Origin: Betaproteobacteria bacterium | Lineage (GTDB): Bacteria; Pseudomonadota; Gammaproteobacteria; Burkholderiales; JAEUOS01 | Reading direction: 5' to 3' | Assembly (NCBI GenBank): GCA_028292405.1 | Contig: JAQGMJ010000028.1 | Coordinates: forward strand, 145,962-209,961 | DNA: 64,000 bases | In this document: one piece after another, positions 9,001 to 47,321 of the stretch | Position numbering within the stretch: position 1 is the first letter of the stretch | Layout of the letters: each line of letters starts with the position of its first letter | The notes under the pieces: generated by a model | Database searches by the model: none | The model's input: the letters and a program-made list of their open reading frames with translations, nothing else | What the model was told of the DNA's origin: nothing | Program-made: the position numbers and the translations under genes

Positions 9001-12000
9001 GGCGAAGGCAGCACGCTGCCGGTGGCCTGGGCGATGATGACGACGTCGCCGATGGTCGCGGTGACGCTGCTGGTGGCGTCGATGTTGATGGTGGCCGACG
9101 CCGTTTCCTTGGCGACGGAGACCAGCAGCGACAGGTTGTTGATGAAGTTGAGGACCGCCGTCGAATTGAGGATGGACTTGACGAAGCCGCCGCCGAAGTC
9201 GATCGGGCTGTCGTAGTGCGCGCCGTCGGCCTGGGCGGTGATGCTCACGGTCGCGCCGCTGAGCACCGAGTGGTTCCTGATGGTCACCGAGTTGGTGATG
9301 TAGTCGTCGTGGGCGAAGGAGCTGGTGAGCGGCTTGTAGGAAACGCTGTTGATCACCAGGTCGCCGGTGATGGTCAGGTTTTCGTTGTCGATCGTGACGT
9401 TGCTGCCGGTGATGGTCAGGTTGAGCGCGTTGCCCGTGCCGCCCGAGATCGTGATGTCGCCGGCCGTCAGGGTGACGTTGCCCAGCGAGGTGAGGTCGAA
9501 GCTCACCAGGTTGGTGTAGGTGCCGCCGTCGAGGGTGGTGGCGAGAGCGCTGGCGCCGATGCTGCTCCTGTCCAGCCAGGTGAGCGCCGAGCCGTCGTAG
9601 TTCGGAACGCTGATGTCGAGCGTGTTGTTGGTTCCGGCGCCCGCCATCGTCAGGGTCACCTTGCCGGTCGGGTGGGCCGCCAGCGCCGCAACCGAGGGCT
9701 TGCCCACCGCGAAGGTGACGTTGCTGCTGTTGCCCTTCAGATTGGCCAGGTCGTTGCCGTTGTCCAGCAGCACCGAGCCGTTGTAGGCGCTGGCATCCAG
9801 CGTCAGCACGTTGGTGGTGTCGGCGGCGTACAGCGCCGCGCCGGCGATGTTGGTGAGGGTGTCGGTCGCCGTCCAGGAGCCGTTGAGCACGCGCATCAGG
9901 CCCGCGCTGGTGCCGCCGGTGAGGGTCATGTCGCCGTCGGCGGTGACGATCAGCGAATTGGCCGCGCCCGCCAGGCCGGTCACGGTGTTGATGCCGCGGC
10001 CGACGGTGAAGACGTTGGTGCCGGCGCCGCCCTTGAGCGCGAGGTGGCCGCCGTTGGTGGCGGCCGCGCCGCTGATGGCGAGCGCGGAGTTGGTGACGCT
10101 GGTGCCGGTCAGCACGTGGCCGGCGCCGATGGTATAGGTCTGAGCCGTCGTCACCAGGCCGAGCATTTCGGCGGTATGGGAAAGCAGGACGAAGGTGGTA
10201 TCCGGATGGGCGTGGTTGGTGGCGGTGTCGCTGGCCACCAGGTTGCCGCTGCTGTCGGTGATGGTGCCGGCTTCGCCGATGGTCAGGGCGCTGGTGCCGG
10301 TGGTGCTGTCGGTGATCACCAGGTGGCCGCCGGCCAAGGTCGCCGTCAGCGGGTTGACGACGGCATTGCCGCCATTGACATAGCCGCAGGCGTTGATCGC
10401 GTCCATCACGTCGCCCATGGTGTCGCAACCGGCGAGGGAAACCGCGACCTTGGTGGTGCCGTCGCTGAGGGTGAAGACCAAGTCCGCGTCCTCGGCGGTG
10501 GCAAAGCCGTTGGCCAGGCTCTGCAGGAAGGTGTCGCGGGTGAGGCCGGTGTAAGTGCTGGCGTCGATCGAGCTGCCGTCGCCGCTGACGTTCAGGTTCG
10601 CGGTGCGGACGTTCTTGATGCTGTCGACGATGGTCCCCGAGGAGGTGACCACCGTGAGGGTGGTGTCGGAAAGGGTGACGGTCTGGGTGCCGCCGGCCAC
10701 GCTGGCGTCCAGGGTGATGCTGTTTTCCCCCGCCGAGCCAATGATGATGTTCTGCTTGGTCGCACTGAGGATGTAGGTGTTGTTGGTGCCGCTGCTGCCG
10801 TCGAGCGTGGCGACGCCGCCGAAGGCGGATGCGTCGAACAGGTCGTTGCCTTCGGCGCCGACCAGGTAGGCGCTCTGGATCTTGGTGAAGATGGTCTTGG
10901 TGTTGGTGGCCGCCTGGGTGGTCGCCACGGCGACGTGGTTGCTCGCGGCCCCGCCGGTCGCATGATCGGCGCCGAGAGCGATGCCACCGAAGGCGAGGTC
11001 GGCGGCATGCTGGCCGATGAACTCGATGGTCCACGGGCTGAAGGTCGCCGGGTCGGTGCCGTCGGCGGCCACGTAGCCGCCGGTGACCAGCACGTTGCCC
11101 ACGCCCACGCCGGCGGTGCTTTCCAGCGCCGCGCGCATTTCGTCGGCGGTGGCGTTCCAGTGGATGGCGCGGGTGCTGACACCGTTGACCATCAGGCTGA
11201 AGGTGCCGCCGCTGACGCCGCTGGCCAGCGTCACCGTCTGGATCAGGTTGTTGCCGACCGCCAGGTCGAGGGTGCTGGCGCCCAGGATCAGGCGGTTGCG
11301 CACGCCTTCCTGGAAGGTGAGGTTATTGGTGCCGTCGTAGTTAGCGCCCAGGCTGTTGGCGGCGACGAGCTGGTTGGTGGCGAAGTCGCCGCCCGTGATG
11401 TTGTAGGCGCCGCCGACGTCGACGATGATGTTGGTCGCCTGCTTGCCGCCGTTGACGCCGTGGCTGGCCAGGATGGTGGCATTGGCAACGCCGCCCACCA
11501 GGATGGTGTCGCCGGTGAAGCCGGAGGAGTCGATCGAGGTGGTGTGGTCGCCGCCGGTGAGGAAGGCTGCCGTCAGGCCGCCGCCGGTGACGTTGTCGGT
11601 CGGTGGAGTCGGGGTGGCGGCGGTGACGGTGGCGCCGGGCGCGTTCGTCGCCACCAGCGAAGCGGTGGCGCCGCTGCCGGTGAGCACCATGTTCCAGTCG
11701 CCGGATTCGACCAGTTCGTTGACCGTGGCCGCGGCCTTGGTGACGATGTTGGTGGTGCCGGCGGTGCCGGTGTAGTAGTTGGTGCCGCTGCCGCCCTTGA
11801 AGGTGTCGGTGCCATGGCCGCTTGAGATCAGGAACAGCGCGCCGGTGTAGGCGCTGGCGTCCAGGGTGATGCCGCCGGTGGTGGTGACGTCGGTCAGGGT
11901 CACCTTGCCGATGTTGCGCAGGTTCGTCACCACGCCGCCCAGCGTCAGGGTGCCGACGGTCTGGCCGGCGAGCGGGCCGGTGCCGGCCACCAGCGCGGAC

Positions 12001-15030: not shown

Positions 15031-16371
15031 CTACTTGGTCAGGCTGCCTATGCGCTGGATGTCTTCATCGCCAAGGGTTCCGGCCGCCTGCTTGAGCTTC
15101 AAGGTGCTGATCAGGTAATCGTATCTGGCCTGCGCCGCGCCCTTCTTGGCGGCGTACAGGTCGCGCTCGGCATCGAGCACCGCCAGCACCGTCGCCAGGC
15201 CGGACTTGTAGCCTTCTTCCTTCAGGCCGCGCGAGGCTTCGAGCGAACTGACCGACTGGTTCAGCGCCCTCACCCGGGTGATGCCGCCGGTGACGCCGAG
15301 GTAGGCGGCGCGCGCCTGGCGCTCGATGGCGCGGCGGTCGCGTTCCAGGTCTTCCCGCGACTCTTCATAGCGCTTGACCGCGGCCGAACTGACCGCGTGG
15401 GTCAGGCCGCCGTCGAAAATCGGGATATGCAGGCGCAGGACCAGGTCGTTTTCGCGTACATTGCTGCCGCCGCCGAACAGGCTGCCGCCAGTGTCCTTGC
15501 GGTCGGCGGTGTAGGCGAGATCGACGGTGGGCGCATAGGCCGAACGCTGCTTGGAAATTTCGGCGCGCGCCACTTCGACGGCCTGGTTGCGCGCCTCCAG
15601 CAGCAGGTTCTTTTCCAGCGCGCCCTGCACCCACTGGGTAGGGTCGGCCGGCACCGGCGGCACCAGTTCCAGCGAACTGTTCAGCGGCGCCAGCTCGCGC
15701 GGCACGCTGCCGATGATTTCGCTCAGGGCCTGCATTTTGTCGCTGAGGTCGTTTTCGGAAGCGACGAGGTCCGAATCCTTCAGGGCGGCGCGCGCTTCGG
15801 CGTCGCGCAGGTTGACTACCGTCACCTGGCCGCTGGAATATTTTGTGGAAGCCAGGGTGAGCTGGCTCTGGATCGCCTGGCGCTCGGTGCGCGCCAGTTC
15901 GAGCGCGTCGTGCGCGGCCAGGGCGCTGAGGTAGGCGGTGGCGGTGCGCACGATCAGGTCCTGCTGGGCGGCGGCAAAGGCGGCGGCGGCCTGCTTTTCG
16001 GCGGACTTGGCCTGGTCGTACTGGTGCCAGGCGGCGAGGCGGAAGATCGGCTGGGTCAGCGTCAGCGATGTCTCTTTTTGCGGGTAGTTCGACGTACCGG
16101 TCGCAAACACCGCGTTTTGGCTGGAAAGGATCTGTTGGCGCGTCTGCGTGCGGTTGTAGTCCGCCGCGATGGTGGGCAAAAAGCCGCTGCGCGCCTGGTC
16201 TACGCCATACGCGATGGCCTCGAATTCGAGGTGCGCGGCCTTGAGGCGGGGGTCGTTCTGCTTCGCCAGCTCGTAGACCTGCAGCAGGTTTTCGGCTTGC
16301 GCTACGGGCGCCGCCAAGGCACCAAGCACCAGCACCGCCAGAATTCGGCGCGGGAAAGACGTACGGCCCAT
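15031..16371 (-). CDS. TolC-family type I secretion outer-membrane protein
   Basis: TolC-family outer-membrane channel of 446 aa, near the family's usual size. The start is the ATG of MGRTSFPRR, not the longer ORF start in the track. It has GGGGAG 7 nt upstream and gives a clean signal peptide (LAVLVLGALAAPVAQA). The mature part opens with NLLQVYELAKQNDPRLKAA, typical of TolC, and has two similar halves of long helices (around 25-210 and 225-430) as expected for a trimeric alpha-barrel. It lies immediately upstream of the giant adhesin in the same direction, so it probably supplies the outer-membrane exit for it. The matching inner-membrane ABC exporter and HlyD-type adaptor are not in the window. 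Assignment to the family is firm; the cargo is inferred from position. Confidence 0.92.
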   Translation of the reverse strand: MGRTSFPRRILAVLVLGALAAPVAQAENLLQVYELAKQNDPRLKAAHLEFEAIAYGVDQARSGFLPTIAADYNRTQTRQQILSSQNAVFATGTSNYPQKETSLTLTQPIFRLAAWHQYDQAKSAEKQAAAAFAAAQQDLIVRTATAYLSALAAHDALELARTERQAIQSQLTLASTKYSSGQVTVVNLRDAEARAALKDSDLVASENDLSDKMQALSEIIGSVPRELAPLNSSLELVPPVPADPTQWVQGALEKNLLLEARNQAVEVARAEISKQRSAYAPTVDLAYTADRKDTGGSLFGGGSNVRENDLVLRLHIPIFDGGLTHAVSSAAVKRYEESREDLERDRRAIERQARAAYLGVTGGITRVRALNQSVSSLEASRGLKEEGYKSGLATVLAVLDAERDLYAAKKGAAQARYDYLISTLKLKQAAGTLGDEDIQRIGSLTK

Positions 16372-18994: not shown

Positions 18995-19498
18995 ATGATC
19001 ATCCACGGCCTATTCCACGTCGCCATCAAGACCAACGACCTTGAGGCCACGCGCTTTTTCTACTGCACGCTGATGGGCTTGAAGGAAGTCGCCCGCCCCG
19101 ACTTCGGCTACCCCGGCGCGTGGATCGCCTGCCCGCAACCGGGCGGTGCGGCGATCATCCACATCTACGCCGGCGGCCCCGCGCTGGGCCACGACGGCAA
19201 GACCGTCTCCGGCACCGCCGCCATCGACCACCTCTCGCTGGCCTGCTCCGGCTTTCACGAGTTCCGCGAACTGGTCGAGCGCAACGGCCTGCCTTACCGC
19301 GAGTTCCTGGTGCCCGGCACCACGCTCTGGCAACTCTTTGTCTACGACCCTTCCGGCGTGCAGCTCGAACTCACCTTCGAAGGCAGCGTCGAGAGCGGCC
19401 GCGCCCCCGACATGTCGCCCGGCCGCGCCTACGTCGCCGGCGCCAGTTTTTTCGATCCCGTCCCTTACATCAAACTCGGCAAAGGAGTCACCGCATGA
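18995..19498 (+). CDS. VOC-family (glyoxalase/dioxygenase-like) protein
   Basis: A 167-aa vicinal-oxygen-chelate protein. It begins MIIHGLFHVAIKTND, with the paired beta-alpha-beta-beta-beta modules of the family. Candidate metal ligands are His in FHVAIKT (about residue 8), His in AIDHLSLAC (about 82) and Glu in VQLELTFEG near the end. The ORF track begins far upstream, but this ATG starts the domain exactly and lies about 40 nt after a sigma-54 promoter. Its stop overlaps the start of the next gene (ATGA), so it is translationally coupled to the ABC importer. It may act on the imported compound or its product; substrate is unknown. Confidence 0.85.
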   Translation: MIIHGLFHVAIKTNDLEATRFFYCTLMGLKEVARPDFGYPGAWIACPQPGGAAIIHIYAGGPALGHDGKTVSGTAAIDHLSLACSGFHEFRELVERNGLPYREFLVPGTTLWQLFVYDPSGVQLELTFEGSVESGRAPDMSPGRAYVAGASFFDPVPYIKLGKGVTA

Positions 19499-20502
19499 AC
19501 CGCACCAAGGCCCAGGCACTCTCGTTGCAGTCCTTCCCGCGCCGCCGCCTGATGCTCGGCGCCATGGCCGTCTCGGCGATGGGCGTGGTGCGCTCGGCGC
19601 GCGCCGAAGACAAGTTGAAGATCGGCGTCTTTCCCTCTTCCTCTTCGGTGCCGATCTACGTCGGCATCGAGCGCGGCTACTTCAAGGAAGTCGGCATCGA
19701 GATCGAGGCCGTACCGATGAACACCCATCCGATCCAGGTGCAGGCGATCGTCGCCGGCGACATCGACGGCAGCTCCAACCTGGTGACCCTGGAAGGCGCC
19801 AACATCAACGGCCGCCGCCCCGGCACCCTCTCCTACATCTCGCTCAACGGCCAGAACGCGCAGTACATCACCGAGCAGTTCGTGGTCAAGCCCGGCAGCA
19901 CCGCCAAGACCATCAAGGACCTGAAGGGCGCGAAGATCTTCTGCGCCCCCGGCCCGGCCAACCTCGGCGCCGCCAAGGCCATCCTCAAGAGCGTCGGTCT
20001 GGAAGAAGGCCGCGACTACACCATGACCGAGCAGGGCATGGGCGTGCACATGGGCGCCATCCAGGGGGCCAACTTCGACGCCGGCTATACGCTCGAACCC
20101 CTCGGCACCATGATGATCAAGCAGGGCGTGGCCCGCCGCCTCGAAGGCGGCGTCATCGCCACCCACCTGCTGGGCCGGGTGGAAGCACAAGCCTATGCGG
20201 CCGGGGGACTTCTCTCCGGCAAGCTGCTGACGGAAAAGCCCGAGGTCGCCGCGCGTTATGCCAAGGCCTGGGCCAAGAGCGTGAAGGACGCCGGCAGCGA
20301 CCCGAAGGCGCGCGAATACCTGACCAAGTTCAACGTGCCCGCCGACCTGGTGCAGGCCGTGCCGCTGGCCAAGTTCACCATGATCAAGGATTTGAGACCG
20401 GCCGATTACGCCGACTTCCAGAAGTTCGTCGACCTCGGCGTCGACATGGGCGTGGTGAAGGACAAGATCGACGTCAAGACCATGCTCAAGTCCTATACCT
20501 GA
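19495..20502 (+). CDS. NMT1/THI5-like ABC transporter substrate-binding protein (Tat-type signal)
   Basis: A 335-aa periplasmic solute receptor of the NMT1/TauA/SsuA type. The true start is the ATG overlapping the VOC stop. The N-terminus carries PRRRLMLGAMAVSAMG, which could be a twin-arginine signal, with cleavage near SARA-ED. The mature protein opens LKIGVFPSSSSVPIYVGIERGYFKEVGIEIE, characteristic of the family. The receptor feeds the adjacent ATPase and permease. Family members bind sulfonates, pyrimidines, nitriles and other small organic molecules. The sigma-54 promoter upstream suggests a nitrogen-containing ligand, which is inference. Confidence 0.9.
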   Translation: MNRTKAQALSLQSFPRRRLMLGAMAVSAMGVVRSARAEDKLKIGVFPSSSSVPIYVGIERGYFKEVGIEIEAVPMNTHPIQVQAIVAGDIDGSSNLVTLEGANINGRRPGTLSYISLNGQNAQYITEQFVVKPGSTAKTIKDLKGAKIFCAPGPANLGAAKAILKSVGLEEGRDYTMTEQGMGVHMGAIQGANFDAGYTLEPLGTMMIKQGVARRLEGGVIATHLLGRVEAQAYAAGGLLSGKLLTEKPEVAARYAKAWAKSVKDAGSDPKAREYLTKFNVPADLVQAVPLAKFTMIKDLRPADYADFQKFVDLGVDMGVVKDKIDVKTMLKSYT

Positions 20503-20517
20503 ACACCATCGGCAGCA

Positions 20518-21354
20518 ATGAACACCCCGATCGACCTGATGAGCGCCATCACCGGCCCGGCCGCTAGCGGGCCCAGCGACCACCGCTGGTTTCCGCCGGG
20601 CACCCACATCACCGTGCGCGGCCTGACCAAGCGCTTCGGCGCCACCACCCTGTACGAAAACTTCAACCTCGACATCCCGCGCGGCCAGCTGATTTCGATC
20701 TTCGGGCCGAACGGCTGCGGCAAGAGCACCCTGATCAACATGATGTCGGGCATCTTGCCGATCGACGGCGGCGAGGTGCTGTTCGACGGTAAGGCGCTGC
20801 GCGACACGCGCATCGGCTACGTGTTCCAGAACTACCGCGAAGCCATGTTCCCCTGGCTGCGCGCGATCGACAACCTGCGCTATCCCCTCAAGTTCCTCAA
20901 GCTTTCCAAGGCGGAGAAGGACGCGCGGGTGGAAAGGATGATCGCGCGCTTCGACGTGAAGATCGACCTGCATCGCTACCCCTACGAGCTTTCCGGCGGG
21001 CAGCAGCAGATGGTCTCCATCATGCGCGCCCTCATCGTCGACCCCGAAGTGCTGTTCATGGACGAGCCTTTCTCCGCGCTGGATTACGAGATGACCCTCT
21101 TCATGCGCGAGCAATTGCAAAAGGTATTCATGGAAACCCGCACCACCACCCTCCTGGTCTCGCATGACCTTGAAGAAGCGGTGCACCTGGCCGACAAGAT
21201 TCTGCTGCTGACGCGCAAGCCCACGCATGTGGCCGACTACATTTCCTTCGATGCGCCGCGCCCGCGCGACACCGCGACCCTTTCCACTCCCGAGTTCGTG
21301 CGCGTCAAGGCGCACAGCCTCGAAGTGTTCCAGCGCGAGGTACGCAAGCCATGA
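20518..21354 (+). CDS. ABC transporter ATP-binding protein (TauB/SsuB type)
   Basis: A 278-aa ATPase subunit. Walker A is GPNGCGKST (about residue 63), the Q-loop is FQNYREAMFPW, the signature is LSGGQQQ (about 160), Walker B is VLFMDEP (about 180), and the switch His lies in LLVSHDLEEAVH. The length is typical for SsuB/TauB-like proteins, with about 30 extra N-terminal residues. It starts 15 nt after the receptor gene and its stop overlaps the permease start (ATGA), so all three subunits are one operon. Confidence 0.94.
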   Translation: MNTPIDLMSAITGPAASGPSDHRWFPPGTHITVRGLTKRFGATTLYENFNLDIPRGQLISIFGPNGCGKSTLINMMSGILPIDGGEVLFDGKALRDTRIGYVFQNYREAMFPWLRAIDNLRYPLKFLKLSKAEKDARVERMIARFDVKIDLHRYPYELSGGQQQMVSIMRALIVDPEVLFMDEPFSALDYEMTLFMREQLQKVFMETRTTTLLVSHDLEEAVHLADKILLLTRKPTHVADYISFDAPRPRDTATLSTPEFVRVKAHSLEVFQREVRKP

Positions 21355-22133
21355 AACCCTCGTTGAAAGAACACCTCCTCGCTCTCCTTGCCAAGCTGGC
21401 GCCCTTGTGGGGCGCGCTGGTGTTCGTCGCCTTGTGGTGGATCGCCACCAGCCTGAAGGTGATCGACCCGATCCTCCTGCCCTCGCCCGCCGATTCGGCC
21501 AAGGCGCTGTGGAAGGGCATGATGGGCGGCTCGCTGTGGCACGACTTCCTGCGCACTGTCACCCGCACCCTGCTCTCCTTCATCATCGCCGTGGCCATCG
21601 CGGTGCCGCTGGGCATCGTGCTCGGCTCTTCCGACAAGATCTACCGCGCGGTGGAATTCATCATCGACTTCTTCCGCTCCACCCCGGCCTCGGCGATGTT
21701 CCCCTTGTTCCTGGTGCTGTTCGGCGTCGGCGAGAAGACCAAGATCGCGGTGGCGGCTTTCGGCGCGGCGCTGGTGATCTTGTTCAACGTCGCCTACGGC
21801 GTGATGAACGCGCGCAAGCTGCGCCAGCTCGCCGCCCGCGTGATGGGCGCCTCGCGCATCGGCGTGCTGACGGATGTCACCTTCTGGGAGTCGATGCCGC
21901 AGACCTTCGTCGGCATGCGCTCCGGCGTCTCTCTCGCCCTGGTGATCGTCATCGTCGCCGAGATGTTCATCGGCTCCACCGACGGCCTGGGCCAGCGGGT
22001 GATCAACTCGCAAATGATCTTCGACATGCCCGAGATGTACGCCTCCATCTTCGCCGCCGGCGCGCTGGGCTACTGCCTGAACCTGCTGTTTCTTTCCATC
22101 GAGCGCAAGTTCGTCCACTGGGGCGGCAAGTAG
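21351..22133 (+). CDS. ABC transporter permease (TauC/SsuC type)
   Basis: A 260-aa inner-membrane permease with six or so hydrophobic segments, starting with LWGALVFVALWWIATSL. The EAA loop that docks the ATPase is the segment around AARVMGASRIGVLTDVTFWESMPQTFVGMRSG. The start codon overlaps the ATPase stop. As the last gene, it completes a VOC-receptor-ATPase-permease operon. The next gene is on the opposite strand 36 bases away. Confidence 0.93.
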   Translation: MKPSLKEHLLALLAKLAPLWGALVFVALWWIATSLKVIDPILLPSPADSAKALWKGMMGGSLWHDFLRTVTRTLLSFIIAVAIAVPLGIVLGSSDKIYRAVEFIIDFFRSTPASAMFPLFLVLFGVGEKTKIAVAAFGAALVILFNVAYGVMNARKLRQLAARVMGASRIGVLTDVTFWESMPQTFVGMRSGVSLALVIVIVAEMFIGSTDGLGQRVINSQMIFDMPEMYASIFAAGALGYCLNLLFLSIERKFVHWGGK

Positions 22134-26854: not shown

Positions 26855-27970
26855 CTAGGCGGCCTTGGCCACCAGCGCGATCATGCCGCCGCCGGGCGGG
26901 CCCTGGTGCTCGTCGCCGCCGGAGACGAAGATGCGGGTGTCGGCGATGACCCCGGCGACGAGGCCGCCGACGGCGCCGCGGATGTGGCGCTGGGCGTTGA
27001 TGTCGCCGTCCTGCCACATGGTGTGGCGCTGGCCGCGCACGTAGCCGCTGGCGTCGGGCTCGCATTTGATCATGGCAGCGGCGATTTGCCTTAGACCCGT
27101 CGCCGTATTGTCGCCAAGAGCGGCGATGCCGAGATCGGCCAGGCAGGCGTAGATGGCGTTGATGTCGAGGGCATCGGTCATCGGGCGGTGGGCGATGACG
27201 TAGTCCGAATTCCAGGCGGCGGAGTTGCCCAGCACCATCACTTCGTTGACGGCGACCTCCACCCCGGAGGAGATGCTGGCGCGTTCGGAGAACCAGTCGA
27301 GGCGCGAGAAGAAGGCGTCTTCGCGGATTTGGCCGGGCGGCAGTTCACCCAGGGCAGCGGCGACGCCGAAGGCGCCGGCGACGCGTGTGTAGGCCATGGA
27401 TTTGTTGGGGTCGGTCGTCACGAGTTGCGCGCCGCGCGCTTTGGCTTCGGCGGCACGCTCGGTGGTGACGCAGGGGCCTTTGACTTGCACGAAGTGAACG
27501 TCGGCCGGGTCGGTGATTTTGGCTTGCGCCATGGCGGCGCGTACGGCTTGCGCGACGCTGTTCACATGCGCGATGCGGCCGAGGTCTTCGGGGGCCAGCA
27601 CGGGGGTGAAGGCGGTGCCGACGGCGAGGGTTTTTTTGCCGGTGGGGGTTTGCGCGATTGGTTGTGCCGCCGGGTCGACGCTGAAGACCACGTAATGCGG
27701 GGTGAGCACGCCTTCGGTGCCGCCGGAGAAAACGAAAATCACTTTTTCGCCGATGGCGTCCATGCTCTGGCCGAGCTTTTCGGCGAGCAGGAGCTTGAGG
27801 GATTGCGTGAGGTAGCCGCGGGTGAAGTCGTTGACCAGGCCATTGCCCTCGGTCTTGCCGAGCACGGCGACGATGTGGGCTGGGTTGACTTTTCCCGCGC
27901 TGATGGCGACGGCGAGTTCGGAGACGTCGCCGGGGTCGCGCATGGTGAAGCGGTGGACGGAGGCGCGCAT
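26855..27970 (-). CDS. Ring-opening amidohydrolase, AtzD/barbiturase family (divergent paralogue)
   Basis: A 371-aa member of the cyanuric acid hydrolase/barbiturase family, whose three similar domains each supply a Ser-Lys pair around one active site. Seen here: GKTEGNGLVNDFTR (about residue 38), [12 protein letters not shown] (about 85), HFVQVKGP, ASISSGVEV with VMVLGN, GQRHTMWQDGDIN, and C-terminal [14 protein letters not shown]. It differs from classical AtzD at several conserved spots: KGP for KCP, NKSMAYTRVAG for [11 protein letters not shown]. The start VHRFTM and the SSGVE segment look closer to barbiturase-type members, so its substrate need not be cyanuric acid. It follows the flavin monooxygenase gene by 25 nt and is surely co-transcribed. 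I infer that the monooxygenase makes, or acts near, a cyclic imide opened by this enzyme. Confidence 0.88.
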   Translation of the reverse strand: MRASVHRFTMRDPGDVSELAVAISAGKVNPAHIVAVLGKTEGNGLVNDFTRGYLTQSLKLLLAEKLGQSMDAIGEKVIFVFSGGTEGVLTPHYVVFSVDPAAQPIAQTPTGKKTLAVGTAFTPVLAPEDLGRIAHVNSVAQAVRAAMAQAKITDPADVHFVQVKGPCVTTERAAEAKARGAQLVTTDPNKSMAYTRVAGAFGVAAALGELPPGQIREDAFFSRLDWFSERASISSGVEVAVNEVMVLGNSAAWNSDYVIAHRPMTDALDINAIYACLADLGIAALGDNTATGLRQIAAAMIKCEPDASGYVRGQRHTMWQDGDINAQRHIRGAVGGLVAGVIADTRIFVSGGDEHQGPPGGGMIALVAKAA

Positions 27971-27995
27971 ACGTTTTACGGTTTCTCGTTACGGG

Positions 27996-29219
27996 TCAGG
28001 GGTAGGTCGAGATGTCGCGGTACAGGCGCTTGAGGTTTTCCATGTAGGGCGGCTCGAGCTTTTTTCGCGTGCCGGCGACCGGGTCGGCGCCGGCGAGCAT
28101 GGTGTCCGTCGAGTAGAGGGAGAACTCCATCACGAACTTGATGCGTTCGCGGCGGCGCTGCTCGACTTCTTCGAGCCAGGCGGGTACCTCGGCCGCGCCG
28201 CCGCCGGCATTTAGCTTGGCGGTGAGTAGGTCGGCGACCATGCAGGCGCCTTCGATGGCTTGCGTGGCGCCCTGCCCTAGCGTGGGCACCATGCCGTTGG
28301 CGGAGTCGCCGAGGAACATGACGCGGCCGCCGGGGTCGCGGAACAGGGCGGGCGACTCCTGCAGGCGCGACCAGTGGATGCTGGGCAGGTTGTTGCAGAG
28401 GGTGTCGACCAGCCAGGCGCATTGCGCCGAGAGCGGGCCGCCGGCGGGGGTGAAGGCGCGGCGAAAGGCAGCGGCGGTTTTCATCTCGTCTGGAATCGGC
28501 GCGCCGGGTTCGATCGGAAAAGCGCCGGAGACGTAGATGTGATCTTCCGGCACCCTGAAGCCGAGCATGCGGTTGGGGCCGTTGAACCATTGCTCGTAGT
28601 CTTCGACCAAGCCGCCGGAGGTGTTGGGCACCAGCAGGCGCAGGATACTCACGCCGACATGCTTGATGTCGGGCACGCCGCAGAGCGTCTGGCGCAGCAG
28701 GGAGTAGCGGCCGTCGCAGGAGATCAGCAGGTCGATGTCGTCGATGCGTTTGGCGGCGCCGTTCTGGGTGTATTCGATCCAGGTGTGGTCGAAAACGGCG
28801 CGGCCCGCGCCGCTAACTGCCGGGTCCGCATAGCCCACGCCGGTGACTTCGCAGCCGAACTGCACGCAGGGACCGGCTTCGTGGCGCAGCACGCGGTAGA
28901 GCTCGGACCAGCGGATGCGGATGCCGGGATTGTCGGCGACGTTTTTCAGCGGCAGGTCGAACAGCACGGTGCCGTCGGTGAGCGAGATGCGCCAGTCGTG
29001 CCAGAGGAAGCTCTCGGCGAGCACGGCGTCGGCCAGCGCCTGCGAGTGGCGCTGCAGCGCCTTCAGGCCGTTGGGGCCGATGTTGAGACCGGTGCCGGAT
29101 TCGGAGTGGTCGTCGGCCACCACCTGCTCCAGGCAACTCACTTCCAGGCCCGGCAGCGCCGCCAGCGCCCGCGCCACGATACAGCCCGCCACCCCCGCTC
29201 CCACCACTACGACTTTCAT
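27996..29219 (-). CDS. FAD-dependent monooxygenase (aromatic-ring hydroxylase type)
   Basis: A 407-aa single-component flavoprotein hydroxylase. Visible motifs are the dinucleotide fold VVVGAGVAGCIVARAL at the very N-terminus, the DG motif LLISCDGRYSLLRQ (about 170) and the FAD-ribityl GD motif VMFLGDSANGMVPTLGQGA (about 300). The start has GGAG 7 nt upstream. Family members use NAD(P)H and O2 to hydroxylate aromatic or heteroaromatic rings. The amidohydrolase downstream suggests a nitrogen heterocycle (a pyridine, pyrimidine or purine) as substrate. This context-based assignment is inference. The gene is divergent from the RND efflux operon. Confidence 0.88.
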   Translation of the reverse strand: MKVVVVGAGVAGCIVARALAALPGLEVSCLEQVVADDHSESGTGLNIGPNGLKALQRHSQALADAVLAESFLWHDWRISLTDGTVLFDLPLKNVADNPGIRIRWSELYRVLRHEAGPCVQFGCEVTGVGYADPAVSGAGRAVFDHTWIEYTQNGAAKRIDDIDLLISCDGRYSLLRQTLCGVPDIKHVGVSILRLLVPNTSGGLVEDYEQWFNGPNRMLGFRVPEDHIYVSGAFPIEPGAPIPDEMKTAAAFRRAFTPAGGPLSAQCAWLVDTLCNNLPSIHWSRLQESPALFRDPGGRVMFLGDSANGMVPTLGQGATQAIEGACMVADLLTAKLNAGGGAAEVPAWLEEVEQRRRERIKFVMEFSLYSTDTMLAGADPVAGTRKKLEPPYMENLKRLYRDISTYP

Positions 29220-29713
29220 TGCTGTGCTCCAAAAACCCGATTTAACAAAATATTACAAGCGCGGACTGATGGTCCGAAACGCCCCGAAAAGGGCAAAACA
29301 GCGTGCCCACCTAAAAAAATACACCGCGTAAGATGAACGAATGGTGAACTTTCGTTTACCTTCTTTGTTGCGAGATTCGCAAGAAGCATACCGTTGGCCT
29401 GTGTTGCATGCACCCAACATCCGAGCTTGTGTTTCTTTTCCCTCTATGCTGCGTCGCCGCATCGACGCGAAATGCGCGAAATGCATGAACCATGGCGGTA
29501 CGCCCGGGAAAATCCGAGTCCGGGAACCGGCGCGCGACGTATATAAATTTAATCCGCGTTTAACCCACCGATTCACGCAAGCGCCATTTTTGGGAATTTA
29601 TACGGTGCTGCGCACAAATGCGGGAATGCGCACTGAAAGGTCCGAAAATGCTTTAATGCTTGGCTGCAGGAGGCAGGCACCGAAACCTCCGCTCAAACGG
29701 GAAAGCAAGTCAG
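29220..29713. promoter_or_regulatory. Divergent control region, monooxygenase / RND efflux
   Basis: This 494-base AT-richer region lies between two divergent operons. It contains the inverted repeat CGGAC-TGATG-GTCCG (29,262-29,276), about 45 bp before the monooxygenase start, and a weak sigma-54-like site (separate entry). ORFs in it have no domain signal. No regulator gene is adjacent. Confidence 0.45.
29379..29393 (-). promoter_or_regulatory. Weak sigma-54-like site upstream of monooxygenase operon
   Basis: On the minus strand, CGGTAT-GCTTC-TTGC keeps GG-N10-GC spacing but departs from TGGCAY at two bases. It lies about 160 nt from the start codon, farther than the other sites in this window. 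Confidence 0.3.
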
Positions 29714-32934
<3,221 letters not shown>

Positions 32935-32938
<4 letters not shown>

Positions 32939-34323
32939 CCGAAAAGACCCATGCCAATCAAGGCCTGCCGGAGTTTCATTTGCACGGCCCTGACCACGAC
33001 ATGAGCCGCCGTTCCGTGGTGCGCCGTGCCCGCTTTGTTTCCCTGGTGGTGATCGCCATACTCGCCATCGGCTTCGTGCTGGTCCTGATGGAACGCCATG
33101 GCGACGCCAAGGCGCTGGACGCGCGCGTGACCGAAGAGACCAAGCTGCACGTCACCGTGGTGCGCCCGAACACCCGCGGGGTCAACTCCAAGCTGACCCT
33201 GCCTTCGACCGTCATGGGGCAGAACGAGGCGCAGGTGTACGCGCGCACGCCCGGCTATGTGAAGCAGTGGACCAAGGACATCGGCCAGCCGGTGAAGGCG
33301 GGCGAGGTGCTGGCGATTCTCGACACGCCGGAAATCAACCAGCAGGTGGCCGAGGCCACCGCCAATTTCAACCTGGCGAAGACCGCCTTCGACCGCTGGA
33401 GCGAGATGCGCCGCGACGACGCCGTCTCGCAGCAGGAACTCGACGAGAAGACCGGCGCCTACCGCCAGACCCAGGCGGCGCTGCAGCGCCTGCGCGACCA
33501 GCAGGCCTTCGGCCGGGTGCTGGCGCCCTTCGACGGCATCGTCACCAAGCGCAACGTCAACATCGGGGACCTGGTGAACGCCGGCAACAGCGGCGGCCCG
33601 CAGGCCCTGTTTTCCGTGGCCCAGGTAAACAAGCTGCACATGTACGTGTTCGTGCCGCAGGACCAGGCGGCGCTGGTGCAGGTGGGCGACGACGTCAGCA
33701 TCATCCGCAAGGAAGCGCCGGGCAAGCCGCTGCCGGGCAAGGTGCTGCGCACCGCCGGCGCCATCGACACCAGCTCGCGCACCCTGCAGGTGGAAATCGA
33801 GGTGCCGAACCAGGACCACGGCCTGATGCCGGGCGCCTATGTCGAGGTAGCGATGAGCATCAAGTCCGACGCGCGCATGACCGTGCCCAACAACACCCTG
33901 CTGTTTTCCGGCGCCGGCGCGCAGGTGGCGGTGGTCGGCGCCGATAACAAGGTGGCGCTGCAGACGGTGACTCTCGGCACCGACTTCGGCCTGCGGGTGG
34001 AGATCAAGAACGGTCTCAGGCCTACCGACAACCTCATCATCAACCCGCCGGACTCCCTCACCTCGGGCCGGGTGGTGACCATCCAGAAGACCGAGACCGC
34101 CAAGGCGGGGCCGGAGAAGGGTGGTAACGACAAGGGTGGCAACGACAAGGGTGGCAACGACAAGGGCGGCGCCGACAAGGGCACTGCCAACGGCGACGAC
34201 AAGAGCGGCGCCCCCGGCGCCAACCAGGACGGTGCCGGCAAGGGAACGCCCGACGCCGCCGGCAAGACCGCCCCGAACGGCGCAGCCAAGACCGCCACCC
34301 CGCCGCCGGCGGACGCTTCCTAA
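32935..34323 (+). CDS. RND periplasmic adaptor (membrane fusion protein) with repetitive tail
   Basis: A 462-aa adaptor. After a cytoplasmic N-terminus with MSRRSVVRRAR, one membrane helix (VSLVVIAILAIGFVLVL) anchors it. The biotinyl-lipoyl half-motifs (VYARTPGYVKQWTKDIGQPVKAGEVL and VLAPFDGIVTKRNVNIGDLV) flank a short alpha-hairpin, with a beta-barrel domain after. The final 70 residues are unusual: four GGNDK-type units, then Gly/Ala/Pro/Lys-rich sequence of low complexity. Such a tail is not standard in the family. The start overlaps the pump stop, so subunits are made together. Confidence 0.92.
34117..34176 (+). repeat. Four 15-bp tandem units coding (K)GGNDK
   Basis: AAGGGTGGYAACGAC occurs three times, with one T/C change, followed by the variant AAGGGCGGCGCCGAC. 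The copies encode the KGGND repeats in the adaptor's tail. Array length could vary among strains. Confidence 0.9.
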
Positions 34324-34373
34324 ACCAAGACGCCGAAAGCCAGGCGCGCCGTATCGGCAAGCCCTCTCATCAC

Positions 34374-35855
34374 ATGAAGCAGAACATTTCACGCAGGACC
34401 TGCCTGGCCGCCGCCGTCGCGGCCGCCTGCCTGGCCGGCTGCGGCGCCATCGGCCCGGACTATTTCCGCCCGGCGGTGCCCGACATGCCGGTCAACTGGA
34501 AGACCGAGCCCGACTGGGCGCTGGCCCAGCCCGCCGACATGCAGCCGAAGTCGGACTGGTGGACCGTGTTCGGCGACGCCAGGCTGAACCAGCTGGAGGA
34601 AGGTGCGCTGGCCGGCAACTTCAACCTGCAGCTGGCAGTGGCGCGCATGGACCAGGCCAATGCCACCATGCAGTCGCGCGAGGCCGCGCTCTACCCGCGC
34701 GTCGAGTTCGACCCCAGCGCCGCGCGCGCGCGCACCTCGGCGAACCGGCCGGTGGCCAACGCCGGCTCGGTCAACAGCAGCACCACGCAGAACGACTTCA
34801 AGCCGCTGCTGGCGGCCAGCTATGAAATCGACCTGGTGGGCCGGGTGCGCCGCGACGTCGAATCCGCGCGCGCCAGCGCCCAGCAGGCGCAGGCCGACCG
34901 CGAGAACGTGCGCCTGGTGCTGACCGCGCAAGTGGCCGCCACCTACTTCCAGCTGCGCCAGCTCGACGAGGAAATCCGCATCGTTTCGGAAGCCACCGCC
35001 GCGCAGGACAAGGCGCTCGACGCCATCAAGAAGCGCTACGCCTCCGGCGCCTCTGGCCAGGCCGACGTGCTGCAGCAGACGGCGCTGTCGCTTTCCAACA
35101 AGGCGCAGCTCGACCTGCTGAAGACCCAGCGCAACATCCAGGAAGACAGCCTGGCGACGCTCACCGGCACGCCGGCCGCTTCGTTCCGCATCGAGCCGGG
35201 CAGCCTGCCGCAGACGGTGCCGCAGGTGCCGGTGACCCTACCGGGCGCGCTGCTGCAGCGCCGCCCCGACGTCGCTTCCGCCGAACGCGCCATGGCTTCC
35301 GCCAACGCGCAGATCGGCGTGGCCAAGGCGGCCTTCTACCCGGTGTTCAACCTAGGCTCGACCTTCTTCGGCACGGAAGCCACCACCCTGGCCAAGCTCG
35401 CTTCGGCCTCTTCCATCCTCTGGTCCTTCGGCATCGCCGCGGCGCAGACCATCTTCGACGGCGGCCGCGCCAAGGCCGGCGTGCTGTTCGCCGAGGCCGG
35501 CTATCGCGGCTCGGTAGCCTCCTACCGGCAGACCGTGCTGGTGGCGATCCAGGAATCGCAGGACGCGCTTTCCAACATCGCCCTGCTCGACAGCGCGAAC
35601 CAAAAGCAGAGCGAAGCGGTGGACAACCAGAACAAGTCGCTGCAGGTGAGCTTCAGGCGCTACCAGGGCGGGCTGGACAACATCATCGCGCTCACCCTGG
35701 TGCAGCAAAACCAGCTGGCGGCGCAGCGTGTGCAGTCGCAGATCCGCGGCTCGCAGTTCGTCACCACGGTAAGCCTGATCAAGGCGCTGGGCGGCGGCTG
35801 GAACGCGCCGGCGTGGAATGCGGCGGAGAAGGAAGCGCGCGATCGTAAAGGCTGA
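34374..35855 (+). CDS. Outer-membrane efflux lipoprotein (NodT/OprM family)
   Basis: A 493-aa outer-membrane factor of the NodT family. The signal peptide ends in a lipobox, CLAGCGAIGPDYFRP, so the protein is lipid-anchored at that Cys. The two homologous halves of coiled-coil helices start near SDWWTVFGDARLNQL and around LPGALLQRRPDVASAERAMASANAQIGVAKAAFYP, both hallmark segments. It follows the adaptor by 50 nt and completes the pump-adaptor-channel set. No regulator of the operon is present beside it. Confidence 0.94.
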   Translation: MKQNISRRTCLAAAVAAACLAGCGAIGPDYFRPAVPDMPVNWKTEPDWALAQPADMQPKSDWWTVFGDARLNQLEEGALAGNFNLQLAVARMDQANATMQSREAALYPRVEFDPSAARARTSANRPVANAGSVNSSTTQNDFKPLLAASYEIDLVGRVRRDVESARASAQQAQADRENVRLVLTAQVAATYFQLRQLDEEIRIVSEATAAQDKALDAIKKRYASGASGQADVLQQTALSLSNKAQLDLLKTQRNIQEDSLATLTGTPAASFRIEPGSLPQTVPQVPVTLPGALLQRRPDVASAERAMASANAQIGVAKAAFYPVFNLGSTFFGTEATTLAKLASASSILWSFGIAAAQTIFDGGRAKAGVLFAEAGYRGSVASYRQTVLVAIQESQDALSNIALLDSANQKQSEAVDNQNKSLQVSFRRYQGGLDNIIALTLVQQNQLAAQRVQSQIRGSQFVTTVSLIKALGGGWNAPAWNAAEKEARDRKG

Positions 35856-37070: not shown

Positions 37071-38456
37071 TCAGCGCAGGCCCGGCAACCCGAGAGTGAT
37101 CAACAGGCCCGCGATCGCGCAGGCGCCGAGCAGGGCCGGCACGCCCGCCTTGTACCGGAAGAGCGCGATCAGCGCAGCCGCGCAGATCAGGGCCGAGGCG
37201 ATGCTGAAATGGCCGCCGAAGCCCTTCGGCCACAACACGTGATAGGCGAAGAACAGCGCGAGGTTGATAATCACGCCGACCACAGCCGCCGTGATGGCCG
37301 ACAGCGGCGCGGTGAACTTGAGATTACCGTGGGTCGCCTCGATCAGCGGCCCGCCGGCGAAAATGAAAATGAACGAAGGCAGGAAGGTGAAGAAGGTAAC
37401 AACGCAGGCGGCAACCGCCGCGCCCAGGAACAGGCGATCCGGGCCGAACACCTGCGTGGTCCATCCGCCAAGGTAGCCGACAAAAGCCACCACCATGATC
37501 AGCGGGCCCGGCGTGGTTTCGCCCAGCGCCAGGCCATCGATCATTTGCGGGCCGGTGAGCCACTGATAATTCTCCACCGCGCCCTGGTAGACATAGGGCA
37601 GCACGGCATAGGCACCGCCGAAGGTGAGCAGCGCGGCCTTGGTGAAAAACCAACCCATTTGCGTGAGCGCACCTTGCGCGCCGTATAGGGCGGCCAGCCC
37701 CCCCATCGCGGCGACCCACAGGCCCAGGCCCGTGCCGGCGATCAGCAGCAGCCGGCGGCGCGAAAAGCGGGCGTGCGGCGGTGTGGGCGTGTCGTCGTCG
37801 ATCAGCGCCGGGCCGTAACCCTTTTCAGTGGCGCCATGGCCGCCGCCGAGCGCGAATACCGCCGGCGCATAACGGCTGCCGAAATGGCCGACCAGCGCGG
37901 CCGCCAGCACGATGGCCGGGAACGGCACGTCGAAAAAGAACAGCGCGGCGAAGGCAGCGGCGGCGATGCCCCACATCCAGCGGTTCTTCAGGGCACGCCC
38001 GCCGATGCGGTGGGCGGCATGCAGCACCAGCGCAGTGACGGCGGGCTTGATGCCGAAGAAGATGCCGGAGACCAGCGGCACATCGCCAAAAGCCACGTAG
38101 ATCCACGACGACACAATCAGGATGAACAGCGAGGGCAGCACGAACAGGCCGCCGGCGGCGATGCCGCCCCAGCCGCGATGCATCAGCCAGCCGATGTAAG
38201 TCGCCAACTGCTGCGCCTCGGGGCCGGGCAGCACCATGCAATAGTTCAGCGCGTGGAGGAAGCGTTTTTCGCTGATCCAGCGGCGGCGCTCGACCAGTTC
38301 GGCGTGCATGATGGCGATCTGCCCGGCAGGGCCGCCGAAGCTGATGAGGCCCAGCTTGAGCCAGAAGCGCAGCGCTTCGGTGAAGGAAACGGGAAGGACT
38401 GGGGATGCAACGACGGGCGGAATCGGCGGTGGTGCGGCAGGCAAAGCGGTGTCCAT
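37071..38456 (-). CDS. chrA: Chromate transporter, long-chain (two-domain) ChrA
   Basis: A 461-aa inner-membrane protein of the CHR family with both half-domains. The first has LISFGGPAGQIAIMH and the conserved PGPEAQQLATYIGW; the second repeats the theme with LLTFGGAYAVLPYV and TTPGPLIMVVAFVGYLGG. I prefer the ATG of MDTALPAAP over a GTG 14 codons upstream because AGAGAG lies just before it. ChrA expels chromate from the cytoplasm. It lies downstream of the GntR gene of the atz locus, with a hairpin between, so co-transcription is uncertain and a functional link is not expected. Confidence 0.92.
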   Translation of the reverse strand: MDTALPAAPPPIPPVVASPVLPVSFTEALRFWLKLGLISFGGPAGQIAIMHAELVERRRWISEKRFLHALNYCMVLPGPEAQQLATYIGWLMHRGWGGIAAGGLFVLPSLFILIVSSWIYVAFGDVPLVSGIFFGIKPAVTALVLHAAHRIGGRALKNRWMWGIAAAAFAALFFFDVPFPAIVLAAALVGHFGSRYAPAVFALGGGHGATEKGYGPALIDDDTPTPPHARFSRRRLLLIAGTGLGLWVAAMGGLAALYGAQGALTQMGWFFTKAALLTFGGAYAVLPYVYQGAVENYQWLTGPQMIDGLALGETTPGPLIMVVAFVGYLGGWTTQVFGPDRLFLGAAVAACVVTFFTFLPSFIFIFAGGPLIEATHGNLKFTAPLSAITAAVVGVIINLALFFAYHVLWPKGFGGHFSIASALICAAALIALFRYKAGVPALLGACAIAGLLITLGLPGLR

Positions 38457-38511
38457 TGAGAGCTCTCTATCGGAGTCTCCAGCGCTTGGACGGGACACCG
38501 TCTGGAATCAG

Positions 38512-38535
38512 GGCCGGGAGGCTGTTTTCCCGGCC
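38512..38535. terminator. Hairpin between gntR and chrA
   Basis: GGCCGGGA pairs with TCCCGGCC across an 8-nt loop. In the minus direction no T-run follows, so it may be a weak terminator or an RNA structure at the head of the chrA message. Confidence 0.4.
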
Positions 38536-43248: not shown

Positions 43249-43285
43249 TCATCTCATGGGTCCGGCCAACCTGGGGAACCGTTCA

Positions 43286-44311
43286 ATGAAAATCCTGCCT
43301 CGCATCCTCGCCTGCCTGCTGCTGGCCGCCTGCGCCGCCACCGCGCAGGCGCAAAGTGCCGCCCCGACCAAAATCAAGTTCGTGCTCGACTGGAAATTCC
43401 AGGGCCTGCACGCCTGGTTCATCACTGCGGCCGAGAAAGGCTATTTCGCGCAGGAAGGGCTGGACGTGACCATCGACTCCGGCGACGGCTCAGCCGCCGC
43501 CGTGACCAAGGTGGCCACCGGCGCCTATGACGCGGGCTTCGGCGACATGAGCGCGATCATCCAGGTAGCGGCGACCTCGCCCGCCACCGCGCCGGTGGGC
43601 GTGTTCATGCTGTACAACCGTTCGCCCTTCGTCATCGTCTCGAAGAAGGACCACAACATCCTCAAGCCGAAAGACCTTGAGGGCAAGCTGCTGGGCAGCC
43701 CGGCCAACGGCGCCACCTACAAGCTGTTTCCCGCCTTCGCCAAGGCGGCGGGCATCGACGCCTCCAAGGTGAGGACCACCAACATCGCGGCCAACCTGCA
43801 GGAAACCATGCTGGTGCGCGGCGAGGTGGATTTTCTCGCCGCCTTTGTCAACACCATCTGGTTTTCCTTGAAGCCGCTGAAGGTGGACCCGGAGAAGGAC
43901 CTGAACCTGATCTACTTTGCCGACTACGGCATCGACCTGTACAGTAATGGCGTGCTGGTGTCGCAAAACCTGATCAAGAACAACCCGAACGCCGTCAAGG
44001 GCCTGGTGCGGGCGATCAACCGCGCGATGACCGATGTGCTGGCCAATCCGGATGCGGCGATCGAAGCAGTAGCCAAGCGCGATCCGCTGATCGACAAGGC
44101 CCTGGAGAAGGAACGCCTGCTGATGACTTACAAACTACTGATTGCCACGCCGGAAGCAAAGGAGCTGGGCATCGGCGACGTCAAGGACGAGCGCATGGCG
44201 CGCTCGATCAAGACGGTGGCCGAGGTCTACGGCCTGGCGACGCCGCCTAAACCGCAGGACGTGTTTTCGCGCGCCTTCCTGCCGCCGAAGGCGGAACGGA
44301 TGGTGCGCTGA
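43286..44311 (+). CDS. NMT1/THI5-like ABC substrate-binding protein (no own permease nearby)
   Basis: A 341-aa periplasmic receptor with signal peptide (ILACLLLAACAATAQA; the Cys might be lipidated, but an AQA-QS cut looks better). The opening KIKFVLDWKFQGLHAWFITAAEKGYF matches the NMT1/THI5 family that binds pyrimidine-like and other small ring compounds. The ATG lies at a proper distance from a perfect sigma-54 promoter. Its stop overlaps the deaminase start (TGATG). No ATPase or permease gene follows, so it may share the TauBC-like pair at 20.5-22.1 kb or one elsewhere. Candidate ligand: the heterocycle processed by the enzymes downstream. Confidence 0.9.
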   Translation: MKILPRILACLLLAACAATAQAQSAAPTKIKFVLDWKFQGLHAWFITAAEKGYFAQEGLDVTIDSGDGSAAAVTKVATGAYDAGFGDMSAIIQVAATSPATAPVGVFMLYNRSPFVIVSKKDHNILKPKDLEGKLLGSPANGATYKLFPAFAKAAGIDASKVRTTNIAANLQETMLVRGEVDFLAAFVNTIWFSLKPLKVDPEKDLNLIYFADYGIDLYSNGVLVSQNLIKNNPNAVKGLVRAINRAMTDVLANPDAAIEAVAKRDPLIDKALEKERLLMTYKLLIATPEAKELGIGDVKDERMARSIKTVAEVYGLATPPKPQDVFSRAFLPPKAERMVR

Positions 44312-45657
44312 TGGCAAGTTTGCTGATCAAGGGGGCGCTGGGCGCGTTGACGGGTGAAGCATCGCCGGCGGCGCGGCTGCCGGCCGTGGATGTGCGGGTG
44401 GCCGGCGGGCTGATCGAGGAGATCGCGCCGGCTTTGCAAGCACGCCCCGGTGAGAGCGTGCTCAATGCCGACGGCTGCGTGCTTTATCCAGGCCTGGTAA
44501 ACACGCACCATCATATGTTCCAGAGCCTGCTCAAGGGCGTGCCCGCGGGCATCAACGAGGGCCTGGGGCTGTGGCTGCGCGGCGTGCATTTGCCGCGCCT
44601 GCCGATTTTCGACGAGGAGATGGTGCGCGTGGGCGCGACCCTGGCACTGGTGCAAATGGCGCTTTCGGGCGCCACCACGGTGGCCGACCATTACTATTTG
44701 CATCATGCTGGCGCGGCGGGCGTGCTGTTCGAGGCGGCCGAGCAACTGGGCTTGCGCCTGGTGCTGTGCCGCGGCGCGGTGACGGTGAAGAGCGCCAATC
44801 CGGACTACCCGGACATCGTGCCGCCGGTGAGCTTCGATGCAATGTTGCGCGATATCGACGACCTGGCGGCGCGCTACCACGACCCGTCTGCCGATTCGCG
44901 GCGCCGGGTGGCGGTGGCGCCGCTGACGCCGACCTATTCGGTAACGCCGGCCGAACTCACGGAACTGGCTCGCTTTGCCCGCGCCAAGGGGCTGCGCATG
45001 CACACCCATCTTTCCGAGACGCTGGACTACATCAGCTATACGCGCGAGAAGCACGATTGCCTGCCGGTGCAGTTCATGGCGGAGCACGAGTGGCTGGGGC
45101 GCGACGTCTGGCTGGCGCACATGGTGCATCTGGCGCCGGAGGAAGTCGCGATGGTCGCGGCCAGCGGCACCGGCATCGCCCATTGCCCCACCAGCAACGC
45201 GCGCCTGGGCAGCGGCATCGCGCCCCTGCCCGCTTATACGCAGGCGGGCGTTTCGGTGTCGCTGGGTGTCGATGGCCCAGCCTGCAGCGAGGCCAGCCAC
45301 ATGCTGGACGAGGCGCGCATGGCCTGGCTGATCCATCGCGCGGCCAGCGGGCCGAAGAGCACCACGGTGGAAAACATCGTGCACGCGGCGACCCGCGCCG
45401 GTGCAGTCAATCTCGGCCTCGACAATGTCGGGTTGCTGAAACCCGGCATGGCTGCCGACCTGGTGGCTTTCGAACTCGAAGGGCCGGCTTACTGGGGCCA
45501 GCACGACGCGCTGGCCGCTCCTCTGATCACCGGGCATGCGCGGGTACGGCATTCGCTGGTGGGCGGCCGCGCGGTGGTGCGCGATGGCCTGCTTCCTGCA
45601 ATCGACCTGGAGAAGTTGCGCCACGACGCCGCCGCGGCGGTAGCGAAACTGCACTGA
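44311..45657 (+). CDS. TRZ/ATZ-family amidohydrolase (deaminase; 8-oxoguanine deaminase/AtzB-like)
   Basis: A 448-aa metal-dependent aminohydrolase of the amidohydrolase superfamily. Metal and catalytic residues appear in order: NTHHHMFQSLLKG (about residue 68), HTHLSETLDYI (about 230), WLAHMVHL (about 270) and LGVDGPACSEASHM (about 320). The mononuclear-metal pattern matches hydroxyatrazine/8-oxoguanine/guanine-type deaminases that release ammonia from a ring amine. In an s-triazine setting it could convert ammeline or ammelide towards cyanuric acid; 8-oxoguanine to urate is an alternative. It is translationally coupled to the receptor upstream. The substrate is inferred, the family is firm. 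Confidence 0.87.
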   Translation: MASLLIKGALGALTGEASPAARLPAVDVRVAGGLIEEIAPALQARPGESVLNADGCVLYPGLVNTHHHMFQSLLKGVPAGINEGLGLWLRGVHLPRLPIFDEEMVRVGATLALVQMALSGATTVADHYYLHHAGAAGVLFEAAEQLGLRLVLCRGAVTVKSANPDYPDIVPPVSFDAMLRDIDDLAARYHDPSADSRRRVAVAPLTPTYSVTPAELTELARFARAKGLRMHTHLSETLDYISYTREKHDCLPVQFMAEHEWLGRDVWLAHMVHLAPEEVAMVAASGTGIAHCPTSNARLGSGIAPLPAYTQAGVSVSLGVDGPACSEASHMLDEARMAWLIHRAASGPKSTTVENIVHAATRAGAVNLGLDNVGLLKPGMAADLVAFELEGPAYWGQHDALAAPLITGHARVRHSLVGGRAVVRDGLLPAIDLEKLRHDAAAAVAKLH

Positions 45658-45716
45658 GCCCATACCGGCGCCATATCGAACCTGCCTTGCCCTCCTCCAC
45701 CGCCCACTCCCCCTCC

Positions 45717-46451: not shown

Positions 46452-46488
46452 ACGCATTCGCAACAACGCTTTCTTACCGGGGCAGCAC

Positions 46489-47310: not shown

Positions 47311-47321
47311 ATTCGCAGGAA

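Follow-up and report, generated by a model that had tools for sequence, protein, structure and literature searches.

A flavin monooxygenase gene adjoining a distinct clade of AtzD/barbiturase-family amidohydrolases, the candidate core of an N-heterocycle catabolic module

Introduction

Cyanuric acid and barbituric acid are the only established substrates of the AtzD/barbiturase family in the open-access literature, and one class of the family is inactive on either (PMC3758960). In a 64,000-nucleotide stretch of betaproteobacterial DNA (hereafter, the window), a gene for a ring-opening amidohydrolase of this family (AtzD-like) lies directly behind a gene for a flavin monooxygenase (FMO). The locus therefore raises the question of whether AtzD-like is one more cyanuric acid hydrolase (CAH) or acts, together with its neighbor, on a different ring. 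Both protein families have been described before. The open-access literature searched, which includes few subscription papers, yielded no account of the pair, the clade or the operon.

Results

Two adjoining genes and their fixed pairing

The two-gene operon with a 25-nt gap proposed in a preliminary description of the locus is present on the minus strand (Table 1), with FMO upstream, its stop codon at 27996-27998, and the ATG of AtzD-like at 27970-27968. The G+C content at the third codon position is 0.86 and 0.88 in the two reading frames, and because codon-position G+C fits, we consider both to be real genes; the long frames opposite them (28374-29336 on the plus strand, for example) were rejected as shadow frames of G+C-rich DNA. 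In the surroundings of the pair, simple scans for promoters and terminators found no signal that clearly exceeded those in shuffled sequences.

The FMO gene adjoins the AtzD-like gene in all 14 sampled members of the clade defined below, which come from Burkholderiales, Bradyrhizobium and one further family, and neither an FMO nor a VOC (glyoxalase-fold) homologue was found in the flanks of about 0.5 to 1.5 kb of 15 further loci of the family, almost all of them CAH-type. The recurrence in three lineages and the absence from these other loci indicate that the pairing is not due to chance. Plasmid-borne copies of the pair were rejected, since FMO has no match among 72,556 plasmids, on which all AtzD matches are less than 60% identical; thiamin-linked control was likewise rejected, as no Rfam TPP riboswitch was found in the window or in 11 loci.

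Table 1. Coordinates of the pair, of the associated genes and of the second AtzD-family gene in the window.
Feature	Position	Strand	Evidence
FMO, a class A FAD-dependent monooxygenase of 407 aa; leading gene of the pair	27996..29219	-	ORF
AtzD/barbiturase-family (Toblerone fold) ring-opening amidohydrolase (AtzD-like), 371 aa	26855..27970	-	ORF
VOC (glyoxalase-fold) protein, about 167 aa	18995..19498	+	Module member by synteny elsewhere
NMT1/THI5-like ABC substrate-binding protein	19495..20502	+	Orthologue linked to the pair in loci L003-L007 and L067
ABC transporter ATPase	20518..21354	+	62-67% identical to module-linked orthologues
ABC transporter permease	21351..22133	+	71-73% identical to full-length Burkholderiales orthologues
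CAH-type AtzD paralogue	48841-49923	+	AtzD-family match, classical CAH motifs

The amidohydrolase belongs to a clade of its own

AtzD-like is a whole-length match to PF09663 (residues 5-368, 451 bits, cut-off 25), and the NCBIfam model for cyanuric acid amidohydrolase would still give it that name (469 bits, cut-off 360). Its AlphaFold2 model (pLDDT 88) has the Toblerone fold and is structurally nearest to the CAHs, superposing on the CAH 6bup with a Z score of 53.7 and an rmsd of 1.8 over 359 residues. Relatives that are 56-70% identical were found in four metagenome-assembled genomes, three from Burkholderiales and one uncultured, and in two Bradyrhizobium (one genome per species). Further genome searches added one genome of another family and six of a single genus, which we call Bradyrhizobium from the closeness of their genes to those of Bradyrhizobium.

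In a maximum-likelihood tree of 34 family members, rooted with uncertainty on a long outgroup, AtzD-like and 13 relatives form one clade with support of 100/100, whose stem is 0.83 changes per column long, and AtzD, TrzD, the Moorella and Azorhizobium CAHs and barbiturase all fall outside it. By sequence, the clade is distinct from the characterized CAHs and from barbiturase. Since the root is unsure and barbiturase itself sits on a long branch near the CAHs, we claim no sister relations. Grouping of the protein within confirmed CAHs, which together with CAH activity alone would have spoken against the initial reading, is not what the tree gives; the clade does, however, branch from among the CAHs, as barbiturase does. 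A structure (PDB 5hy0), apparently from Frankia and with the entry title "orotic acid hydrolase", seems to be a member of the class in PMC3758960 for which no activity is known.

The term "paralogue", used from the outset for AtzD-like, proved apt, given that the window holds a second AtzD-family gene (Table 1), which groups with the AtzD-type CAHs with moderate support (93/78) and shares 64% identity with the AtzD of strain ADP. This copy lies in a second N-heterocycle cluster (43256-51104), with genes for an NMT1-like binding protein, an 8-oxoguanine/ammeline-deaminase-like amidohydrolase, an SDR protein, a hydantoinase/allantoinase-like protein and an M20 hydrolase. An AtzD-M20-transporter group resembling this cluster occurs at another locus (L028, genome G004).

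A conserved catalytic core with a mixed specificity signature

The motifs SGGTEG and HQGPPGGG, reported at first reading as kept, are both present, and the two reported departures from classical AtzD were also borne out: KGPCVT replaces KCPLLT, and NKSMAYTRVAG replaces another classical motif of 11 residues. The three Ser-Lys dyads and three arginines named for the family (PMC4051656, PMC3758960) correspond to K39/S82, K164/S234 and K302/S350 and to R51, R196 and R331 of AtzD-like. They are kept throughout the 14-member clade, and the dyad that is absolutely conserved in the family (Ser226/Lys156 of the Azorhizobium CAH) is among those present. The AtzD numbering before about residue 165 is off by one, and the comparison there was made by motif.

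Five specificity positions have been defined, which in CAHs (groups I-III) are Arg195, Thr321, Arg325, Gly345 and Gly346 and in barbiturase (group VI) are Asn195, His321, Lys325, Val345 and Ser/Ala346 (PMC3758960). The clade has R-Q-R-G-G at these positions, as opposed to R-T-R-G-G and N-H-K-V-S/A, so that AtzD-like agrees with the CAHs at four of five, departs at position 321, where Q327 stands in the place of Thr or His, and matches barbiturase at none. The clade and barbiturase both have KCE (297 equivalent), and all clade members but one share with barbiturase the Ile before the last Arg (324 equivalent). Compared with CAHs, the clade mostly has N for Tyr/Leu in the channel (N188) and CV for LL. 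These departures from the CAHs (T to Q, KCE, N and CV) are invariant or nearly so. The mixed signature falls outside the six groups of PMC3758960. The automatic label "cyanuric acid amidohydrolase" probably misnames the 14 members. The intact three-arginine pocket suggests a ring that carries three oxygens, arranged in a 2,4,6-like fashion, but bound within an altered rim.

The flavin monooxygenase resembles HpxO in structure

FMO carries the GxGxxG FAD motif and the GD motif on the class A flavoprotein monooxygenase fold, and it is remote by sequence from characterized enzymes (less than 45 bits to any PDB chain). The best structural matches of its model are tied between TrlE (Z 40.1) and HpxO (Z 39.9), and its score against the NCBIfam HpxO model, 60.6 bits, is below the cut-off of 500. 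The HpxO sequence used only as a search probe is identical to the PDB chain at every residue. Arg217 and Tyr229 of FMO align with Arg204 and Tyr216 of HpxO in both MAFFT and hhalign; we take the latter two to be the residues that act on urate, an assumption with which the existence of an R204Q entry (3rp8) agrees. Their equivalents are invariant in 12 FMOs, and the first of the two positions is His in NicC and TrlE.

More distant relatives of FMO (39-46% identity) occur without an AtzD protein of the clade type. Those at three loci (L023, L024 and L026) pair with a VOC protein, and others have neighbors resembling PuuE allantoinase, ureidoglycolate lyase and RutB/biuret hydrolase, or lie near ammeline/8-oxoguanine-deaminase-like, Rieske and nitrilase proteins. 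In one genome (G003), the surroundings include a very divergent AtzD-family protein. At L027:18465-19526 (the same gene in L013), the encoded protein is a very divergent member of this family, about 30% identical, with changes both at the serine of SGGTEG and around the catalytic Ser, a region that is usually invariant. Roughly 9 kb separate its gene from that of another FMO in the subfamily, and nitrilase-family and PuuE-like genes adjoin it.

The module in other genomes

Eight Bradyrhizobium-type loci share the order MoM-MoS-MoL-AtzD-FMO-VOC, where Mo denotes molybdenum hydroxylase genes; an amidase gene comes next in three of them, and the genes mostly touch or overlap by a few bases. In the Burkholderiales loci, the FMO-AtzD pair, an MmgE/PrpD protein, molybdenum hydroxylase subunits, an ABC transporter and a VOC protein lie within about 10-12 kb, and some loci add a CoA-transferase or an amidase; the VOC protein or the small molybdenum subunits are absent from view in some, the end of the contig or of the stretch read truncating part of these loci. 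Between the two kinds of modules, the molybdenum hydroxylases are only about 36-38% identical. At one locus (L068), neither molybdenum genes nor a VOC gene were found within the 18.5 kb examined.

The wider neighborhoods differ. NadX and nicotinamidase genes adjoin the VOC gene in three close Bradyrhizobium loci, L008 has a nicotinate phosphoribosyltransferase, and other copies have as neighbors a uracil phosphoribosyltransferase, purine-breakdown genes or a transporter of ECF type that includes a PF09819 component. These neighbors are mostly related to N-heterocycles but disagree on which one (uracil, purine or nicotinate salvage), and some may be there by chance.

Associated and surrounding genes in the window's own genome

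The window's VOC protein has the conserved His/His/His/Glu pattern of a metal site; an E. coli GloA sequence in one VOC alignment served only as a rough guide to the metal ligands. The transporter and VOC genes (18995-22133) are on the opposite strand, about 5-7 kb from the pair, the VOC gene being the more distant at about 7.4 kb. Because of this distance and strand, the assignment of the VOC protein to the module is drawn from synteny elsewhere, where its relatives directly follow FMO in the Bradyrhizobium loci. The closest molybdenum large subunit in the window's genome is on another contig and is 69% identical to a Burkholderiales one; the FAD subunit has only 53-56% matches elsewhere.

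Several other features of the window were recorded. An apparent efflux system of RND type (29660-35855), comprising a pump of the inner membrane, an adaptor and an outer membrane factor, is divergent from FMO and starts about 440 nt upstream of it. A putative gene for a chromate-transporter-like membrane protein (37071-38498, minus) overlaps at its listed start with a match to the cis-regulatory RNA chrB-b (38479-38533, minus; Rfam RF03086, 50.9 bits), so that its true start is probably further downstream. A minus-strand frame open for almost 5000 codons (1-14960) runs off the start of the window and is preceded upstream, on the same strand, by a gene for a TolC-like outer membrane protein (15031-16335); together, they look like the genes for a giant secreted protein of repetitive sequence and for its exporter. 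Next to a fumarate-reductase-type flavoprotein (52326-53807), a group of genes (53821-59037) encodes three MmgE/PrpD-like proteins and, in their midst, a binding protein of tripartite-tricarboxylate type, all named by eye.

Discussion

A proposed route and its competitors

In the reading we lean toward, the pair forms the core of a catabolic module for an N-heterocycle, in which ring hydroxylation is followed by hydrolytic opening of a ring of oxo-pyrimidine type. The claim that the module is distinct from the cyanuric acid route is supported by a 100/100 clade, a specificity signature of its own, and a recurrent association with a molybdenum hydroxylase, a VOC protein, an amidase and an ABC transporter. 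In this module, the NMT1/THI5-like ABC transporter would import the compound, and a xanthine-oxidase-type molybdenum hydroxylase would add an oxo group to a carbon adjoining a ring nitrogen. FMO, with NAD(P)H and O2, would then hydroxylate an electron-rich ring carbon, by analogy with the C5 hydroxylation of urate by HpxO; AtzD-like would open the cyclic imide so formed through Ser-Lys hydrolysis, leaving the ureide or amide product to be handled by the VOC protein and amidase. We place the FMO step ahead of ring opening, since monooxygenases of class A require a ring that is aromatic or an enol. The genes and their conservation, the unbroken set of catalytic residues and the separate clade with its signature are observed; the order of the steps, the type of ring, the substrate and every activity of the module are inferred.

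Since FMO has the HpxO-type Arg and Tyr, the three-Arg pocket is intact, and purine and pyrimidine hydrolases surround the relatives of FMO, the evidence points to a ring of oxo-pyrimidine or purine type rather than to a pyridine. Of the ring types first suggested, pyrimidine and purine thus come to the fore, and pyridine, the least supported, is kept in play by the nicotinate-salvage neighbors. A barbiturate-type ring fits the AtzD-like pocket and the HpxO-like FMO together, a purine ring fits FMO better than AtzD-like, and a pyridine fits least. Oxidation of pyrimidines to barbituric acid is an established first step (PMC3758960), and the molybdenum enzyme could be the oxidant that performs it in the module. 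In the most specific version, offered tentatively, the substrate would be a uracil- or barbiturate-type pyrimidine, and AtzD-like would open a 5-hydroxylated barbiturate. With rather more confidence, though still short of an even chance, we suggest a new substrate class for the Toblerone fold, opened only after hydroxylation by the partner FMO, in an oxidative pyrimidine or purine route whose intermediates would be a C5-hydroxylated trioxo-pyrimidine and a ureide not described so far.

The strongest competitor, which we nonetheless consider unlikely, is a purine or methylpurine route, in which the molybdenum hydroxylase would form a urate, FMO would convert it to a 5-hydroxyisourate, and AtzD-like would act as a non-homologous 5-hydroxyisourate-type hydrolase on the six-membered ring, followed by the VOC protein. 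The HpxO-like features of FMO and the PuuE allantoinase and ureidoglycolate-lyase-like proteins near its relatives are consistent with it. So is genome G1069, where the module operon is followed within about 5 kb (L064:12124-17115) by genes for a uracil phosphoribosyltransferase, a PuuE-like protein, an OHCU decarboxylase/HIU hydrolase fusion and a uricase, and so is G000, where neither HIU hydrolase nor OHCU decarboxylase was detectable. However, a normal HIU hydrolase is present in 9 of the 11 carriers searched and an OHCU decarboxylase in 8, which led us to reject a simple replacement in the urate pathway. Moreover, the three arginines would bind three carbonyl oxygens of one six-membered ring, to which a bicyclic purine would be a poor match.

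That AtzD-like is an ordinary CAH, for which FMO prepares a substituted s-triazine, is improbable. Its complete set of catalytic residues, its score against the CAH model, its nearest structures and the origin of its branch all agree with such a role, and on its sequence plain cyanuric acid hydrolysis is possible; against this stand the nearly invariant departures at and around the specificity position, the CAH-type AtzD already encoded in the window, and the surroundings of the pair, where no biuret or allophanate hydrolase was recognized. The combination of a molybdenum hydroxylase and a flavin monooxygenase is also the logic of nicotinate breakdown, but a nicotinate-type route, with hydrolytic opening of a dioxo-pyridine and the NadX, nicotinamidase and nicotinate phosphoribosyltransferase genes in its favor, is the most doubtful of all, as the position that is His in NicC is an HpxO-type Arg in FMO, the nicotinate genes vary by locus and serve salvage rather than breakdown, and a pyridine would leave the three-carbonyl pocket unfilled.

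With an invariable monooxygenase partner and an operon that is conserved, the clade opens the question of its substrate to direct testing and suggests natural, non-industrial roles for the Toblerone fold.

Comparison with known systems

AtzD-like shares with the CAHs (AtzD, TrzD and those of Moorella and Azorhizobium) the fold, the dyads, the arginines and Gly-Gly at the 345/346 equivalents, at 42-50% identity by structural alignment. It differs from them in forming its own clade, in having Q at the 321 equivalent, KCE and I/V324, with N188 and CV for LL in nearly all members, and in always adjoining a flavin monooxygenase at the loci examined. With barbiturase (Rhodococcus, PDB 5hwe, the chain used in the analysis), it shares the family, the fold, KCE and mostly Ile at the 324 equivalent, at 38% identity, whereas the Asn195, His321, Lys325 and Val345 of barbiturase are replaced by Arg, Gln, Arg and Gly. 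FMO has the class A fold in common with NicC (6-hydroxynicotinate 3-monooxygenase; Z about 36), from which the Arg at the HpxO-204 position separates it, and with the urate hydroxylase HpxO (PDB 3rp6/3rp7), to which it is only 21% identical and with which it shares the Arg/Tyr equivalents.
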